DNA from: an uncultured Verrucomicrobiota bacterium
GTDB lineage: Bacteria > Verrucomicrobiota > Kiritimatiellia > Kiritimatiellales > Pontiellaceae
Direction: 5' to 3'
Length of the DNA: 50,227 nucleotides
NCBI GenBank assembly: GCA_913065005.1
Contig: CAJYAJ010000006.1
Span: forward strand, 1 to 50,227
Position 1 is the first letter of the stretch. Each line of letters opens with the position of its first letter. The position numbers and the translations under genes are program-made. Shown here in pieces: positions 34,725-41,439 of this stretch. Under the pieces are notes generated by a model, which saw only the letters and a program-made list of their open reading frames with translations, was not told the origin of the DNA and did not search any database.

Positions 34725-35809
34725 CCCTCATCCTCCGGTTTTGCACGCCCCTCTTGCAACGTTCTCCTAAATCGAGCTAACCGACGATCCTGCTCCCGCT
34801 TCTCAATCGTACCCGCTGAAAACCGCGCCGCCTCACTCATAAGGCGCACATAATGATCATAGCGCTCTTGAGGCAACTCACCCGCCTCCACCGCAGCGAT
34901 CACCGCACACCCCTCCGTCTGAACATGAGCACAATCACCAAACCGACACCCCGACGCCCAAGCTTGAATATCCTCAAACGTCTCACTAATACCGCTTTCA
35001 GCCTCCATATTGCCCAATTCACGCATGCCCGGTGTATCAATTACATGACCCCCATTCTCCAACGTAATCAACTCCCGCCAGGTCGTCGTATGGACCCCTT
35101 TTCCATCCGACTCCCGCACCGGCAAGGTAAACAATCGATCTTCCCCCAAAACTCGATTCAGCAACGTTGATTTCCCCGCACCAGAAACCCCGATCACGCA
35201 ACAGGTTAATCTTGCTTCAAACAGATCCGCCGTCTCTGCAAGCCCCTCACCCGTCTCATTACTCATCAATAAAACCTTCACCCCCGGCAGATGGTTCTTC
35301 ACCAATGCCTCCACCTCTAAACACGCATCTACCTCCAACAAATCCTGCTTGGTTAAAATAATAACCGGCTCAATACCACTCTCGTTCACCATCACCAAAT
35401 AGCGCTCAATGCGCTTTAAACTAAATCCTGCACCCACACCCTGGACAATAAATGCTCGATCAAGATTAGCCGCAATCAACTGTTCACGAGACGTGCGTCC
35501 CGCACTTTTCCGACGTAAAACCGAACGCCTCTCCAATATACGCTCAACCCGTCCAAACTCACCCACCAAAAAATCCTTCACCAAAACCCAATCACCCACA
35601 GTTGGATAATCCGCACGGGATTGCGCACGATGCCGCAATCGTCCCGTCATCTTCGCCGGACGAACCGTCTCCCCATTGGATACATCACAAGCTCCTTTAT
35701 GAATCGCTACCACCCGAGCTGGCTGCAATTTCTGATCCCGATCCGTTACCACCTGCGCCGCATATTGCTCATCCCAACCTAGATCCACTAAACTCAATAG
35801 TCCCACCAC
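34721..35809 (-). CDS. rsgA: Ribosome small-subunit-dependent GTPase A
   Basis: RsgA is a late 30S assembly factor. The 362-residue product uses a GTG start at 35807-35809, since no ATG fits. The GTPase is circularly permuted as expected: G4 TKQD (153-156) comes before G1 GVSGAGKS (207-214) and G3 DTPG (258-261). An OB domain lies at the N-terminus (about 30-100), and the C-terminal zinc finger is Cys288, Cys293, His295 and Cys301. The start overlaps the upstream secreted-protein gene by 16 nt. Confidence 0.96.
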   Translation of the reverse strand: MVGLLSLVDLGWDEQYAAQVVTDRDQKLQPARVVAIHKGACDVSNGETVRPAKMTGRLRHRAQSRADYPTVGDWVLVKDFLVGEFGRVERILERRSVLRRKSAGRTSREQLIAANLDRAFIVQGVGAGFSLKRIERYLVMVNESGIEPVIILTKQDLLEVDACLEVEALVKNHLPGVKVLLMSNETGEGLAETADLFEARLTCCVIGVSGAGKSTLLNRVLGEDRLFTLPVRESDGKGVHTTTWRELITLENGGHVIDTPGMRELGNMEAESGISETFEDIQAWASGCRFGDCAHVQTEGCAVIAAVEAGELPQERYDHYVRLMSEAARFSAGTIEKREQDRRLARFRRTLQEGRAKPEDEG

Positions 35810-36453
35810 AAATTCAACGTATACACCGGCAATAAAATTGACTCCCCCACATCCTTCTCATATGACTTCGACTCCCCCTTCATTAACCAGCAATAACAGG
35901 CCAAGAGATCGCCCTCCCCATATCCATTCACCATACCTCCCCGCAAAAACAACATACGCCCCTCGATATCCTGTACCACAAACTCATTCTCAACGATCGC
36001 AATCACGCGCCCTTGAAAAACCTCTCTGCCCAAAACATGATCAGCACGCTCAACAAACGCCCCATACGCCCGCTCCCAAGCCTTCTCCAACGAAAGATCT
36101 TCCTCAAGGCCTTCATCCAATTTATATTGCAAATAACGCAACGCCACATTATCAACTGCTTTTAACCGCCCCTCACACGCATCACAATCGGGTTCCACTT
36201 CAACCGCACAATCCGCACACGGAATCGTAAAATCCCCAAGGCTAAGAGACTCCCCCCATTTCGAAGATGATTTTTGCAATTGCTCAAGATATGCACGCGC
36301 CTTTGAATAATCCCCCTGCATCAACTGATAGATCACCCCATGCAACTGATCCTTCGGCTCCCCCAATATCGAAATACCAAAAAAATCATTTGCTAACGCA
36401 CCCAGCACCAGTAGCAAACTCAATAAAATAGATTTAATCATAACCGAAAACAT
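35794..36453 (-). CDS. Secreted protein with two CxxC motifs, function unknown
   Basis: The 219-residue product has a signal peptide (start MFSVMIKSILLSLLLVLGALA; MIKSILL is an alternative start). At residues 79-93 two CxxC pairs (CADC-x7-CDAC) form a likely zinc ribbon or redox pair, similar to the CxxCxG modules frequent in PVC secreted proteins. An acidic helix segment follows, then a beta-rich C-terminus (VFQGRVIAIVENEFVVQDIE). I cannot name a family. Its 3' end overlaps the GTG of rsgA by 16 nt, so the two are cotranscribed despite acting in different compartments. Confidence 0.65.
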   Translation of the reverse strand: MFSVMIKSILLSLLLVLGALANDFFGISILGEPKDQLHGVIYQLMQGDYSKARAYLEQLQKSSSKWGESLSLGDFTIPCADCAVEVEPDCDACEGRLKAVDNVALRYLQYKLDEGLEEDLSLEKAWERAYGAFVERADHVLGREVFQGRVIAIVENEFVVQDIEGRMLFLRGGMVNGYGEGDLLACYCWLMKGESKSYEKDVGESILLPVYTLNLWWDY

Positions 36454-36519: not shown

Positions 36520-37041
36520 ATGAATTCACTCAAACAAGCCCTGCGAACCATTCCTGACTTCCCAAAACCCGGCATCCAATTTCAAGATATCGCCCCTCTT
36601 CTTCAAGATCCCATCCATTTCAGCAACACCATTCAAGCGTTAAAAAACCATCACCGAAACGACTCTATCGATTTAATTGCCGGCATCGAATCACGCGGCT
36701 TTATCTTTGGCTCTGCCCTCGCCTACGCCCTCGGTTGCGGAACCGTTTTGGTTCGCAAGCCCGGCAAACTTCCCGGTCCCATTCATCAGCAATCTTATGA
36801 CCTTGAATATGGAACCGATGCACTCGAAATCCAAACCGATGCCATTCAACCGCATCAGCGCGTTCTCCTCATCGATGATGTTCTCGCTACTGGCGGAACC
36901 GTCTCCGCAGCGCACCAACTCATCCAGTCTCACTTCGACGTTCAAATGGTCGGAGCCACTTTCCTTCTTGAGATCTCCCCACTAAACGGGAGAAAACGCC
37001 TCACCGATCTCCCCCTTCACAGTCTCATCCAAATTCCATAA
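36520..37041 (+). CDS. apt: Adenine phosphoribosyltransferase
   Basis: Apt converts adenine and PRPP to AMP in purine salvage. The 173-residue product has the expected N-terminus (IPDFPKPGIQFQDIAPLL), IAGIESRGFIFG, the adenine-pocket region VRKPGKLPGP, and the PRPP-binding VLLIDDVLATGGT (115-127). The length matches the family. GAAAGGAAATA is the ribosome-binding site. Its stop codon lies in the U-tract of the terminator of the convergent lipoprotein gene. Confidence 0.96.
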   Translation: MNSLKQALRTIPDFPKPGIQFQDIAPLLQDPIHFSNTIQALKNHHRNDSIDLIAGIESRGFIFGSALAYALGCGTVLVRKPGKLPGPIHQQSYDLEYGTDALEIQTDAIQPHQRVLLIDDVLATGGTVSAAHQLIQSHFDVQMVGATFLLEISPLNGRKRLTDLPLHSLIQIP

Positions 37042-37070
37042 AAAACCCGCCCAACTACCGTTGGACAGGC
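37040..37070 (-). terminator. Rho-independent terminator of the lipoprotein gene
   Basis: The minus strand has GCCTGTCCAAC, loop GGTA, GTTGGGCGGGT, an 11-bp stem with three G-U pairs, then six T. It serves the coiled-coil lipoprotein gene and overlaps the last two bases of the apt stop codon. On the plus strand no T-tract follows the stem. Confidence 0.8.
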
Positions 37071-37096
37071 CCACATTGCATCAACTGTAGCACCGA

Positions 37097-37696
37097 CTAC
37101 TTTGCTTTCATACGTTCTAATAAAACGCGCGCTTTCTCGCTAGCCGGTAAAAATTCTAAGTCAGCATTATCTCCACTTACAATCATCGCCTCCGCTCCCG
37201 CATCCATCATATCCGATGCCCCCGGCTCAGGCAACGAACCGGAATTCGCTAGTCCGCTCATGTTATTCACAAGCATATCCAATCGACGCTGTAACCCATC
37301 GCGCTCGCTCTCCGTAGTTGTCAACTGCTCTTGCACTGCTGATAATTGATCTTTCACCCGATCTGCTGCTGACTCTGCCCGACTCACATCTCGCTCCAAC
37401 GAAGTCACTTGCGCCTTCACTTTCGCCGCATCTTTTGCTGCCGAAATAGCCTTCTTCTGCGACTCCCTCAATTTGCGTTCCGCACTCTCAAGCTGCAACC
37501 GTATCGATTTCCCCTTCGCCTTCTCCGACTTCACTATACTTTCCAAATCAGCAATTTTCCCACTTAGCATCGACTCTACTTCTGCCCGATCCGCCTGCAA
37601 CTGAGCAACCGCCGCATCATGCTCCTCCTGAGGAACTCCACAACCTGTAATAACCAAAACCACCGCTAACATGAACCCGTTTATATATTTCATCAT
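37097..37696 (-). CDS. Coiled-coil lipoprotein
   Basis: ATG at 37696 (or the next codon) gives 199 residues. It is preferred over longer frames because GGAGA precedes it at 8 nt and a sigma70-type promoter lies 30-60 nt upstream, inside the alternative longer frame. A lipobox (VITGC, Cys19) predicts a lipid anchor. Residues from about 25 to 145 are a long Ala/Lys/Glu-rich heptad coiled coil (AQLQADRAEVESMLSGKIAD, then RKLRESQKKAISAAKDAAKV). The tail is Gly/Ser-rich followed by a short C-terminal helix. The architecture resembles periplasmic structural lipoproteins such as Lpp or TolC-region proteins, but no family is identifiable. Confidence 0.75.
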   Translation of the reverse strand: MMKYINGFMLAVVLVITGCGVPQEEHDAAVAQLQADRAEVESMLSGKIADLESIVKSEKAKGKSIRLQLESAERKLRESQKKAISAAKDAAKVKAQVTSLERDVSRAESAADRVKDQLSAVQEQLTTTESERDGLQRRLDMLVNNMSGLANSGSLPEPGASDMMDAGAEAMIVSGDNADLEFLPASEKARVLLERMKAK

Positions 37697-37727
37697 CCAA
37701 TTGTCTCCTACATTTAATAACTCTATA

Positions 37728-37756
37728 TCTATAAATAAATTTCCATCTCTTTTCAA
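37728..37756 (-). promoter_or_regulatory. Sigma70-type promoter of the lipoprotein gene
   Basis: On the minus strand TTGAAA (37751-37756) and TATAGA (37728-37733) are separated by exactly 17 nt. The expected start is near 37720, leaving a leader of about 25 nt with a good ribosome-binding site before the ATG. Confidence 0.65.
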
Positions 37757-38013
37757 GGTACAAAGCCATCTAAGATAATTCACCTGAAAAAACGCGCTCC
37801 ATTTATGAAGTAAAAAGTGCATAATTTAAAGAAAGGAAACTGCAAGGTAAATTGTTAATATAACTAAAATTTTAATTATTATTTTTTTTATCTTTTTTCT
37901 TGTGAATTTTTTTAATTGTGAGAAAAAAGAAATCACTTGAACGAAATGAACTAAGAAAAGTGTGAAGAATGACCAAGCAAATAAAGCAGAACCAGAGAAA
38001 GGAGGCCGACTCT
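37757..38013. other. AT-rich non-coding stretch upstream of the small membrane protein
   Basis: No gene is supported here. From about 37850 to 37935 the DNA is almost pure A and T, with T-tracts of 8, 6 and 7 nt and an A-tract of 6 nt spaced about 10-15 nt apart, which suggests intrinsic bend or a nucleoid-protein site. TTGTTA at 37852 with an ATTATT 17 nt further is a weak promoter candidate for the plus-strand gene. An in-frame ATG at 37969 could extend that gene by 15 residues. Confidence 0.4.
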
Positions 38014-38172
38014 ATGAAGTTAATTCTTAAAAGAAACTCATTAGTAAAGTCTCCACTCCATCAATTATGGGCATGGTGCTTGTGTGCGCTGGTTATCGTT
38101 CTTCTTCCCGTGTCTTCCATGCTAGACACATCAACAAATCCTTTTTGCTCGTGTGAGCAATATAGTAAATAA
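38014..38172 (+). CDS. Small membrane protein, 52 residues, unknown
   Basis: The ATG at 38014 follows GAAAGGAGG with 8 nt spacing, a near-perfect ribosome-binding site. The 52-residue product has a basic N-terminus (MKLILKRNSLVKSP), one hydrophobic helix (LWAWCLCALVIVLLPVSSML), and a short polar tail with FCSCEQYSK. It is followed 31 nt later by a strong terminator, making a compact transcription unit between two minus-strand genes. The composition fits a small integral membrane protein; a type I toxin-like peptide is possible but unsupported by any visible antisense RNA. An in-frame ATG at 37969 is a less likely start. Confidence 0.55.
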   Translation: MKLILKRNSLVKSPLHQLWAWCLCALVIVLLPVSSMLDTSTNPFCSCEQYSK

Positions 38173-38203
38173 AAATAGTACTAACCACATATCAACTGCA
38201 TCT

Positions 38204-38233
38204 AACCTCCCCGCTTGCGGGGAGGTTTTTTTT
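38204..38233 (+). terminator. Strong Rho-independent terminator
   Basis: AACCTCCCCG, loop CTTG, CGGGGAGGTT form a perfect 10-bp stem whose last two T begin a run of eight T. It ends the unit containing the 52-residue membrane protein. On the minus strand no T-run follows, so it does not serve the redoxin operon ending at 38256. Confidence 0.9.
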
Positions 38234-38255
38234 ATCTCAAGAAATGCACGGCTCT

Positions 38256-38834
38256 CTAAACGAGATCGCAGGCATCGGAAGGCATCCAATGCTTCTCTTG
38301 GCCATCCCACTTCACATTACAACCAATCGGATTGGTCAACGGGTTCTCAATTACATTACCCGCAAGATGTTGCTCTAGCGCATCAATAAGATCCGTCTTT
38401 GTGTGATCTGGCCAATGACGAGGCGTATCGATAGAACGCCCCGTATAAATTAGTTCCCGTTCTTTATTAAACACATAAAAATGAGGAGTACGCAGCGCCC
38501 CATATGCCACTGCCACCGCTTGTGATTCATCATAAAGATAAATCCACGGGAATTGATGCTTCTCCAGTCGCGTAACCATTCCGTTAAAATCATCTTCTGA
38601 ATAGGTATTTTTACTATTCGAATTAATCCCCACAAAACGAACTCCCTGCGAAGCAAATCGATCTGCGATCATCCGCGTATGTTCATCTGAACCCGTCACA
38701 TATGGACAATGGTTACAGGTAAAAAAGAGAACCAACGTCTCTTCCTTAAAATCACTTAATCCATACGAGCTTCCATCTGTTGCCGGAAGCATAAACTCCG
38801 GTGCGCTCTCCCCTAACTGTAATGTAAATGCCAT
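38256..38834 (-). CDS. Thioredoxin-like/redoxin protein
   Basis: The 192-residue product is a cytoplasmic AhpC/TSA-type thioredoxin fold without signal peptide: [20 protein letters not shown] at the start, [10 protein letters not shown] with Cys40 and Cys43 (CNHC in place of CGPC), [15 protein letters not shown], and the cis-Pro region [20 protein letters not shown]. This subgroup is widespread as peroxiredoxin-like or thiol-disulfide proteins of unknown substrate. It is 10 nt after alaS and is the last gene of cvpA-dnaG-alaS. Confidence 0.9.
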
Positions 38835-38844
38835 CGTTCACTCC

Positions 38845-41439
38845 TTATTTCAATGTGCTCTCTAAATAAACCGAAGCTTCCTCTAATGCCGAGTCGATTT
38901 TAGATGCATCTTTGCCCCCTGCCTGCGCTTTTTCTGGTTTGCCACCCCCCCCGCCATCCGCAACGGCCGCCACCTGGCCAACTAATTTTCCAGCATGCAC
39001 ACCCTTCTCAACCCATTCCGAAGAAACACTCGCGGCAAAACACGCCTTCCCTTCGTTTGCACTCGCAACCACTAAAACACCCGATGCAATTTTTTGACGC
39101 AACTGATCTAGCACCTGACGCAAAGCATCCATCGGCAATTCACCCACATGCACCGCCAATAGAGGCACCTGCTGAACTTTTATAACCTGATCGAGATAAG
39201 AATCCACCTGCGATGTCGCCGCCTGCGATTGCAACAGTTTAACCTGCTTCTCAGTCTCACGAAGTTGATTGCTCAATAGATGAACCCGCTCCGGTAATTC
39301 ATCCGGTTTCACACTCAAGCGCTGACTCAAACCCATGAGCAACTCATGCTCTTCCGCCGTCCAATCCACCGCTTCCATACCCGTGACTGCTTCAATTCGA
39401 CGAACACCCGCTGCCACGGAACTTTCCGATACAATACGGAAAGAGCCAATATCTCCGGTCAATTGGACATGCGTTCCACCACACAATTCTTGAGAAAAAT
39501 CGCCAATGCCCACCACCCGAACGCGCTCACCATACTTATCATCAAAGACCGCTTGAATCCGCCGATCCTGCTGCACTTCTGCCAACGCCATTTCACGCGT
39601 CTCTACAGCTGTATTACGCATAATTTCATGATTCACAACCTGCTCAATCCGCTGTAGTTGCTCAATCGGAATGGCCTCAAAATAATTAAAATCAAACCGC
39701 AATCGCTCCCCACTAACCAAAGAGCCCGCCTGCTTAATCGACGCATCTACCACATCTCGCAACGCCCCATTTAACAAATGCGTTGCCGTATGATTCCGAC
39801 GCATCTGTCCCCGCCGATAGCGATCAATCCCCGCCATCACTTTCATCCCCACTTGGGGGGCTCCATACAAAACCCGACCCATATGAAGAATAATTCCATC
39901 CGCCGGTTTCTGGGTATCGTGAACTTCAAAGCCAAATCCGGCACCTTTCAATTCACCCCAATCTCCCTGCTGTCCCCCACCCTCGGGATAAAACGGAGTC
40001 TCTTTAAGCACCAATGCCCCCGAATCAAGCACCGCCACAATCTCGGTATCACAGAACGTTTTCGTGTAGCCTATAAATTCGGACTGCACACCCTGCGCCA
40101 CCAAATCAGCAATCAAATCCATTTGAGCGTTCTGAGCCCCCGTTGAGCGAGATGCCCGTGCCCGCTCGCGCTGCACCTCCATCAATGCTTTGAACGCATC
40201 CTCATCCACACCCAACCCTTTTTCAGATGCCATCAGGGCGGTTAAATCAAAAGGAAATCCATAGGTATCATATAAACTAAACGCCTCATCCCCAGGGAAT
40301 ACGCCATCTGCAGGAAGCACCTCCGCAACAGCCTCAAACCGAGCAATCCCTCTATCCAACGTTTTTGAAAACGCCTCTTCCTCACTACGTAATGCCCGCA
40401 AAATCGTCTCACGCTGATTGACCAGTTCTGGAAAAATATCTCCCAATTGCGCCTCAAGCGTCGGAAAGAGTTTACACAAAAAAGGCTCTTCAAAGCCCAA
40501 GGTTCGTCCATACCGAACCGCCCGCCTGAGCAACCGCCGCAACACATAACCCCGCCCGTCGTTTGACGGAAGCACACCATCCGAAATCGCGATCGATAGC
40601 GTTCGTATATGATCCGATATCACACGCATCGCAATCGCATTATCACCCTCATACACCTGAGCAGATAACTCCGCCAAGCGCTCAATCAACGGCATAAACA
40701 CATCGGTATCATAATTCGATGTTTTTCCCTGCAAAACCGCACAAAGCCGCTCAAACCCCATGCCCGTATCAACATGTTTCGACGCCAACTCCTCCAGCGA
40801 ACCATCCGATCGACGGTTATACTGAATGAACACCAGATTCCAGATCTCAATCACTTCCGGTAAATCCGCATTCACCATCTCACCCGTCGCCATTCCTTCC
40901 GGCGTCAAATCATAATGAATCTCCGAACACGGCCCACACGGTCCCGTTTCACCCATCTCCCAAAAATTATCTTTCTCATCAAACCGCAAGATATGCGCAG
41001 GATTGATATCCGTTACCTCTTTCCATAACGCCAGTGCCTCATCATCGGTTCGATAAACCGTCGCCCAAATTCGATCCTTATCGAGGTTCCACACATCCGT
41101 CATTAACTCCCAAGCATAGGCAATCGCTTCCCGCTTGTAATAATCGCCAAACGACCAATTGCCCAACATCTCAAAAAAGGTGTGATGATAGGTATCATGC
41201 CCCACCTCTTCCAAATCATTATGCTTCCCCGAAACCCGAATACATTTTTGCGTATTCGCCACCCGCTTCTCCCCTGCTTCGCGCGCGCCCAAGAAGATCT
41301 CTTTAAACTGATTCATTCCCGCATTCGTGAAAAGCAACGTGGGATCCGCAGGCAATACCACCGGAGAACTCGGCACCACCGCATGCTGCTTCGATGCAAA
41401 AAATTTAAAAAATGACTGCCTTATTTCGTCTGCCTTCAT
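38845..41439 (-). CDS. alaS: Alanyl-tRNA synthetase
   Basis: AlaS charges tRNA-Ala and edits mischarged Ser or Gly. ATG 41439 (MKADEIRQSFFKFFASKQH) has GTAGGA upstream and is preferred over an upstream start; the product is 864 residues. The class II catalytic core shows TNAGMNQFKEIFLG, NDLEEVGHDTYHHTFFEMLG and GMGFERL. The editing domain has HTATHLLNGALRDV and CGGTHV zinc ligands, and a Gly-rich stretch (ADGGGGGKPEKAQAGG) with a C-Ala domain ends the protein. It is 81 nt after dnaG. Confidence 0.97.
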   Translation of the reverse strand: MKADEIRQSFFKFFASKQHAVVPSSPVVLPADPTLLFTNAGMNQFKEIFLGAREAGEKRVANTQKCIRVSGKHNDLEEVGHDTYHHTFFEMLGNWSFGDYYKREAIAYAWELMTDVWNLDKDRIWATVYRTDDEALALWKEVTDINPAHILRFDEKDNFWEMGETGPCGPCSEIHYDLTPEGMATGEMVNADLPEVIEIWNLVFIQYNRRSDGSLEELASKHVDTGMGFERLCAVLQGKTSNYDTDVFMPLIERLAELSAQVYEGDNAIAMRVISDHIRTLSIAISDGVLPSNDGRGYVLRRLLRRAVRYGRTLGFEEPFLCKLFPTLEAQLGDIFPELVNQRETILRALRSEEEAFSKTLDRGIARFEAVAEVLPADGVFPGDEAFSLYDTYGFPFDLTALMASEKGLGVDEDAFKALMEVQRERARASRSTGAQNAQMDLIADLVAQGVQSEFIGYTKTFCDTEIVAVLDSGALVLKETPFYPEGGGQQGDWGELKGAGFGFEVHDTQKPADGIILHMGRVLYGAPQVGMKVMAGIDRYRRGQMRRNHTATHLLNGALRDVVDASIKQAGSLVSGERLRFDFNYFEAIPIEQLQRIEQVVNHEIMRNTAVETREMALAEVQQDRRIQAVFDDKYGERVRVVGIGDFSQELCGGTHVQLTGDIGSFRIVSESSVAAGVRRIEAVTGMEAVDWTAEEHELLMGLSQRLSVKPDELPERVHLLSNQLRETEKQVKLLQSQAATSQVDSYLDQVIKVQQVPLLAVHVGELPMDALRQVLDQLRQKIASGVLVVASANEGKACFAASVSSEWVEKGVHAGKLVGQVAAVADGGGGGKPEKAQAGGKDASKIDSALEEASVYLESTLK

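Follow-up and report, generated by a model that had tools for sequence, protein, structure and literature searches.

Type I toxin mRNAs, such as those of the Hok, TisB, and Fst/TxpA types, carry a short open reading frame (ORF) with one helix on a structured transcript. The small RNA SgrS acts together with Hfq in Gammaproteobacteria. One published account (PMC8672173) describes the pairing part of SgrS/SgrT as highly conserved and its ORF as present in only a subset of species. The same account (PMC8672173) presents VcdRP of Vibrio as a dual-function RNA of more than 300 nt, in which a 29-codon ORF lies upstream of a conserved pairing site and a terminator, and it places this RNA in the Gammaproteobacteria, where it acts with Hfq.

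The locus examined here resembles VcdRP and SgrS/SgrT in its predicted stand-alone transcript of about 300 nt or more, which would combine a short ORF led by a Shine-Dalgarno (SD) sequence, a conserved candidate pairing region, and a Rho-independent terminator. As described for SgrS/SgrT, conservation is stronger in the putative pairing part than in the ORF, a likeness that does not amount to membership. The locus differs in that Hfq serves those RNAs, whereas a search of 28 genus genomes turned up neither Hfq nor ProQ, and it has no sequence relation to either system. A short one-helix ORF and a structured predicted transcript are also shared with the Hok, TisB, and Fst/TxpA types, but the locus has no antisense RNA signal, repeat copies, or conserved helix. 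The best below-threshold match in Rfam was sau-6072 (RF02398), which covers 38189-38232, mainly the terminator hairpin, but it scores 25.8 bits where gathering requires 50, which leaves the locus outside that family. Searches of open-licence papers yielded no small RNA of Kiritimatiellota/Kiritimatiellae, and nothing on Verrucomicrobia together with type I toxin-antitoxin systems and small RNAs. We consider it somewhat probable that the locus is a small transcription unit standing on its own and that selection has acted chiefly on its RNA. The best reading is a candidate trans-acting small RNA, independent of Hfq and ProQ and possibly dual-function.

The window, meaning the whole stretch of DNA analysed (contig C6, 50,227 bases), belongs to a small marine genome of Kiritimatiellaceae/Pontiellaceae-like type, which comprises about 1.2 Mb in 44 contigs and is 79% complete. 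Its minus strand runs from alaS through a redoxin gene and a gap to a coiled-coil lipoprotein gene, and the unit occupies this gap on the plus strand, just as the sequence-only reading had placed it between minus-strand genes. The gap spans 433 nt if counted to the distal end of the lipoprotein open frame and 559 nt if counted to the likely ATG at 37696. Matches to the redoxin were found in Verrucomicrobia bacterium UBA8747 (87%), Kiritimatiellaceae bacterium MED670 (81%), and Kiritimatiellaceae SAT197 (74%), and also in Pontiella; the MED670 genome is referred to below as G019. The features of the locus are as follows.

37097-37696, minus strand: coiled-coil lipoprotein gene, one flank, with its likely ATG at 37696
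37823-37996, no strand assigned: AT-rich stretch with T-tracts, a probable divergent promoter region, not conserved in G019
37997-38005, plus strand: near-perfect SD site GAAAGGAGG, with an 8-nt spacer to the ATG
38014-38172 including the stop, plus strand: 52-codon ORF with one hydrophobic helix, as read from its sequence
38144-38233, plus strand: conserved 90-nt core, 93% identical to G019
38145-38160, plus strand: perfect hairpin UUGCUC-GUGU-GAGCAA within the ORF end, identical in G019
38161-38203, plus strand: linker of about 43 nt, mostly single-stranded, a candidate pairing (seed) region
38204-38233, plus strand: intrinsic terminator with stem AACCTCCCCGC/GCGGGGAGGTT and T8
38256-38834, minus strand: redoxin gene (PF08534), the other flank

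The terminator is as strong as had been proposed: its stem of 10 bp includes 7 GC pairs, closes on a 4-nt loop, and is followed by T8. In G019, a U is added to one stem arm and an A to the other, so that pairing is kept. A folding energy of -34.8 kcal/mol was computed for the 3′ 126 nt (z = -4.9), and 0 of 200 shuffles folded as well. Fold z-scores of -4.9 and -4.1, identity of 93% over 90 nt, and the paired stem change together describe a conserved, structured, non-coding sequence; because there are two sequences only, the comparison gives no true covariation statistics.

A DNA search of the 28 genus genomes matched the 3′ part in G019 alone (90 nt, 93%, E 6e-32), where the core sits at the same gene junction as in the window. 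The remaining matches listed spanned 16-31 nt and included a minus-strand self-match that arises from the symmetry of the stem. The hairpin TTTGCTCGTGTGAGCAAT is identical in G019 at 18 of 18 positions, and the linker and terminator also align. An exact match of 34 nt (38172-38205), the fifth longest such run between the window and that G019 contig, is non-coding and lies 3′ of the stop codon in all but its first base. By comparison, the redoxin genes of the window and G019 show 75% identity overall and 54% at third codon positions, nearby protein-coding DNA is about 75-78% identical, and three other intergenic gaps stand at 64%, 65%, and 77%. Across an 11.3-kb block collinear with G019, identity over 90 nt averages 77.5%, and 38145-38233, at 93.3%, ties for the top value with a segment inside the alaS ORF. 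Across 96 nt of the core, the G019 record is free of ambiguous bases, whereas the next 323 nt contain 12. Conservation 3′ of the stop codon can only act at the level of RNA or DNA, and the sequences suggest that what has been conserved is mainly RNA and not the membrane helix.

The module is narrowly distributed. A covariance model (R1), built from two sequences with 14 pairs, detected it at E <= 0.01 in 2 of the 28 genus genomes and, under stricter filters, in 2 of 345 genomes across the class; two further matches in the genus (E 0.25 and 0.58) were taken as chance. When up to 3 mismatches were allowed, a 23-nt pattern from the linker occurred in 3 of the 345 genomes, the third of which (G187, 3 mismatches) was no better than the single match of the reversed control. 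Terminator matches in G041 and G005 appear to be the terminators of other genes, and the only other hairpin-like match, with two mismatches, lies in an unrelated context. A multi-copy or repeat element was set aside since a search of the genome's own contigs found the unit once. Nothing in Rfam 15 reached the gathering score for the unit, and three tRNAs are the sole members of Rfam 15 families at threshold in the window. Three exact patterns gave 0 matches in viral contigs, so a viral origin was discarded; phage and plasmid collections likewise gave no DNA match for the unit.

The nearest relative, G022 (63% complete), lacks the module, and so do all other searched genomes of the class except G019. 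Over alaS-redoxin, G022 is about 87% identical to the window at the DNA level versus 78% for G019, and because the closer genome is the one without the unit, it may have been lost in G022 or moved horizontally. Recent horizontal transfer was considered as the cause of the high identity and is not preferred, because the upstream half has diverged while the genome position is the same.

Spacing between the flanking genes was surveyed at 23 loci including that of the window; at 9 the redoxin end was not detected by its motif and at 3 no lipobox was detected, leaving 11 measured. The redoxin stop and the lipobox are 607 nt apart in the window, 475 nt in G019, and 130-200 nt at the other 9 of the 11, and the spacing is 176-190 nt at L017, L026, and L028 when measured from the match end. 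This short spacing leaves no room for the unit at any of the 12 remaining loci that have both genes. Thus, among loci where both genes were located, the insertion is carried by the window and G019 only. As an aside on the neighborhood, the redoxin and an uncharacterised coiled-coil lipoprotein (lipobox, GCGVPQEEH-like start) form a conserved adjacent pair in the group, which was seen at L011, L013-L016, L020, L024, L025, and L029 and is split only in the window and G019.

The unit shows how a small ORF can divert attention from an adjoining conserved RNA. Its ORF opens with an ATG at 38014, ends with TAA at 38170-38172, and encodes the 52-residue peptide MKLILKRNSLVKSPLHQLWAWCLCALVIVLLPVSSMLDTSTNPFCSCEQYSK, whose single hydrophobic stretch gives a best 19-residue Kyte-Doolittle mean of 2.19, for the segment from residue 19. 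The single-helix peptide and the near-perfect SD site (8 nt before the ATG) are therefore both as the sequence-only reading described them. That reading had also named three possible products, namely a small peptide for stress or the envelope, a protein resembling type I toxins, and an mRNA with regulatory RNA function; of these three, only the last gains support, because the conserved part is the 3′ non-coding module. If a small membrane peptide were the functional product, with a 3′ UTR conserved by coincidence, the well-spaced SD and the clear helix would be accounted for. AGGAGG placed 4-12 nt before an ATG with 50 or more open codons arose in only 2 of 5000 Markov shuffles of the gap (37697-38255), which argues for a real peptide too, and the whole window has 3 such arrangements, of which the other two lead ORFs of 185 and 399 codons. 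G019 also has an ATG-led ORF, of 35 codons, with its own SD-like AAAGGA site and with the same tail in the same frame. Its peptide, MLRVLMDXERSERSMPIRVPSLPVTNLCSCEQCVK (X marks an ambiguous base), shares with that of the window only the C-terminal LPV..TN..CSCEQ..K, however, and because its best 19-residue hydropathy is only 0.53, it has no membrane helix. Leader and ORF body align poorly between the two genomes. Of 272 gene segments, 96% have a higher codon score than the window ORF, whose score does not exceed that of its own shuffles, and 89% rank above it by synonymous choice alone; the codon usage of the ORF looks non-coding or atypical. With the helix missing from the sole homologue found, codon usage that is not gene-like, and the best conservation in the non-coding 3′ part, an envelope peptide as the product is unlikely, though it retains appreciable weight.

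Wider searches add little for the peptide. Apart from the window itself, a small-protein search of 40 relatives found only weak matches (best E 0.029); E <= 1 was reached in 18 of the 40 genomes, the source genome included, and 12 of the 23 other matches contain a stop codon. Phages and plasmids gave no match for the peptide at the protein or the DNA level, and it has no Pfam, NCBIfam, or PADLOC family, with one PHROGs match at E 0.18. Codon conservation in close relatives, the lack of which had been named as refuting, is thus largely missing for the peptide even though the locus is kept in G019. Selection could instead have acted on the cysteine-containing tail, CSCEQ..K, for example as a short metal- or redox-sensing peptide beside the redoxin. 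That neighbor, and the retention of CSCEQ and the stop in frame in both genomes despite a divergent remainder, are in keeping with this idea, but the 18 nt of the tail are also a perfect RNA hairpin without synonymous change, so that selection on peptide and on RNA is inseparable at these codons, and conservation is equally strong past the stop codon. We regard selection on the tail as improbable. A conserved stretch that works on the minus strand, as a 3′ UTR or 3′ stabiliser of the alaS-redoxin transcript, would fit its start 22 nt past the redoxin stop codon and the symmetry of its hairpins. Against this, the T8 tract follows the stem on the plus strand only, in both genomes, and other genomes with the same redoxin gene do not have the stretch, which makes such a role very improbable. 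A type I toxin-antitoxin locus, with a toxic membrane peptide restrained by an antisense RNA, would match the size, single helix, and structured 3′ end of the unit. The proposal finds no support and is extremely improbable: a consensus scan across the ORF and 3′ end (37997-38255) detected nothing promoter-like on the minus strand, the helix is absent in G019, no toxin family is matched, and the unit is single-copy in its own genome.

For the favored reading, a small RNA with a conserved 3′ module, transcription would start in the AT-rich divergent region, pass the short ORF, and end at the terminator near 38233. The AT-rich leader with spaced T-tracts that had been reported is real in composition, with T-tracts at 37883-37917, and its promoter role is conjectural since the plus-strand promoter match is weak (9/12 at 37855-37882, by consensus scan). 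Promoter-like sites numbered 6 in 37000-39000 against 3.3 +/- 2.0 expected. On the minus strand, a promoter-like site at 37906-37878 (10/12) is directed at the lipoprotein gene, which is why the stretch may be a divergent promoter region. As a discrete transcript, then, the unit has a clear terminator and a weak promoter match.

In the proposed mechanism, the 3′ 90 nt would form a small-RNA module composed of the hairpin, the open linker, and the terminator hairpin. The two hairpins would protect and delimit the RNA, and the linker, a natural candidate for a pairing site, would most likely bind mRNAs, one or several, by base-pairing. Some translation of the SD-led ORF is probable, and the RNA may therefore have a dual function; on the peptide side, a strong SD in the window and AAAGGA in G019 accompany an unconserved body and atypical codon usage, and conservation does not lie in the membrane helix. 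In the 28 genus genomes (G000-G024 and G040-G042; half are less than 90% complete), Hfq (PF17209) and ProQ (PF04352) were each found in 0 of 28, with control genomes positive, and because neither Pfam family was found there the small RNA probably works without both proteins. A bolder version holds that this is a lineage-restricted, Hfq/ProQ-free dual-function RNA, inserted on the opposite strand between redoxin and lipoprotein, in which a fast-changing peptide and a frozen 3′ module cooperate and the hairpin doubles as the codons of the cysteine tail. We advance it tentatively and consider it unlikely.

A candidate RNA with an exactly conserved linker would offer a concrete probe of RNA regulation in streamlined marine genomes. 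Targets were sought in the unit's own genome (79% complete) as complements of two 18-nt linker pieces with up to 3 mismatches. No near-complementary site coincided with a clear ribosome-binding site, and no convincing target emerged in this genome. The second piece had no near-complementary site there (control 1), and the other had 5 besides the unit itself, of which two showed 2 mismatches, against 1 for its reversed control. Three of these five sites lie within long open frames in the sense orientation, and two are antisense to such frames.

Elsewhere in the window, a 219-residue ORF on the minus strand (35794-36453) has no Pfam match, and a similar protein was seen by eye near the equivalent place in G022 and SAT197.
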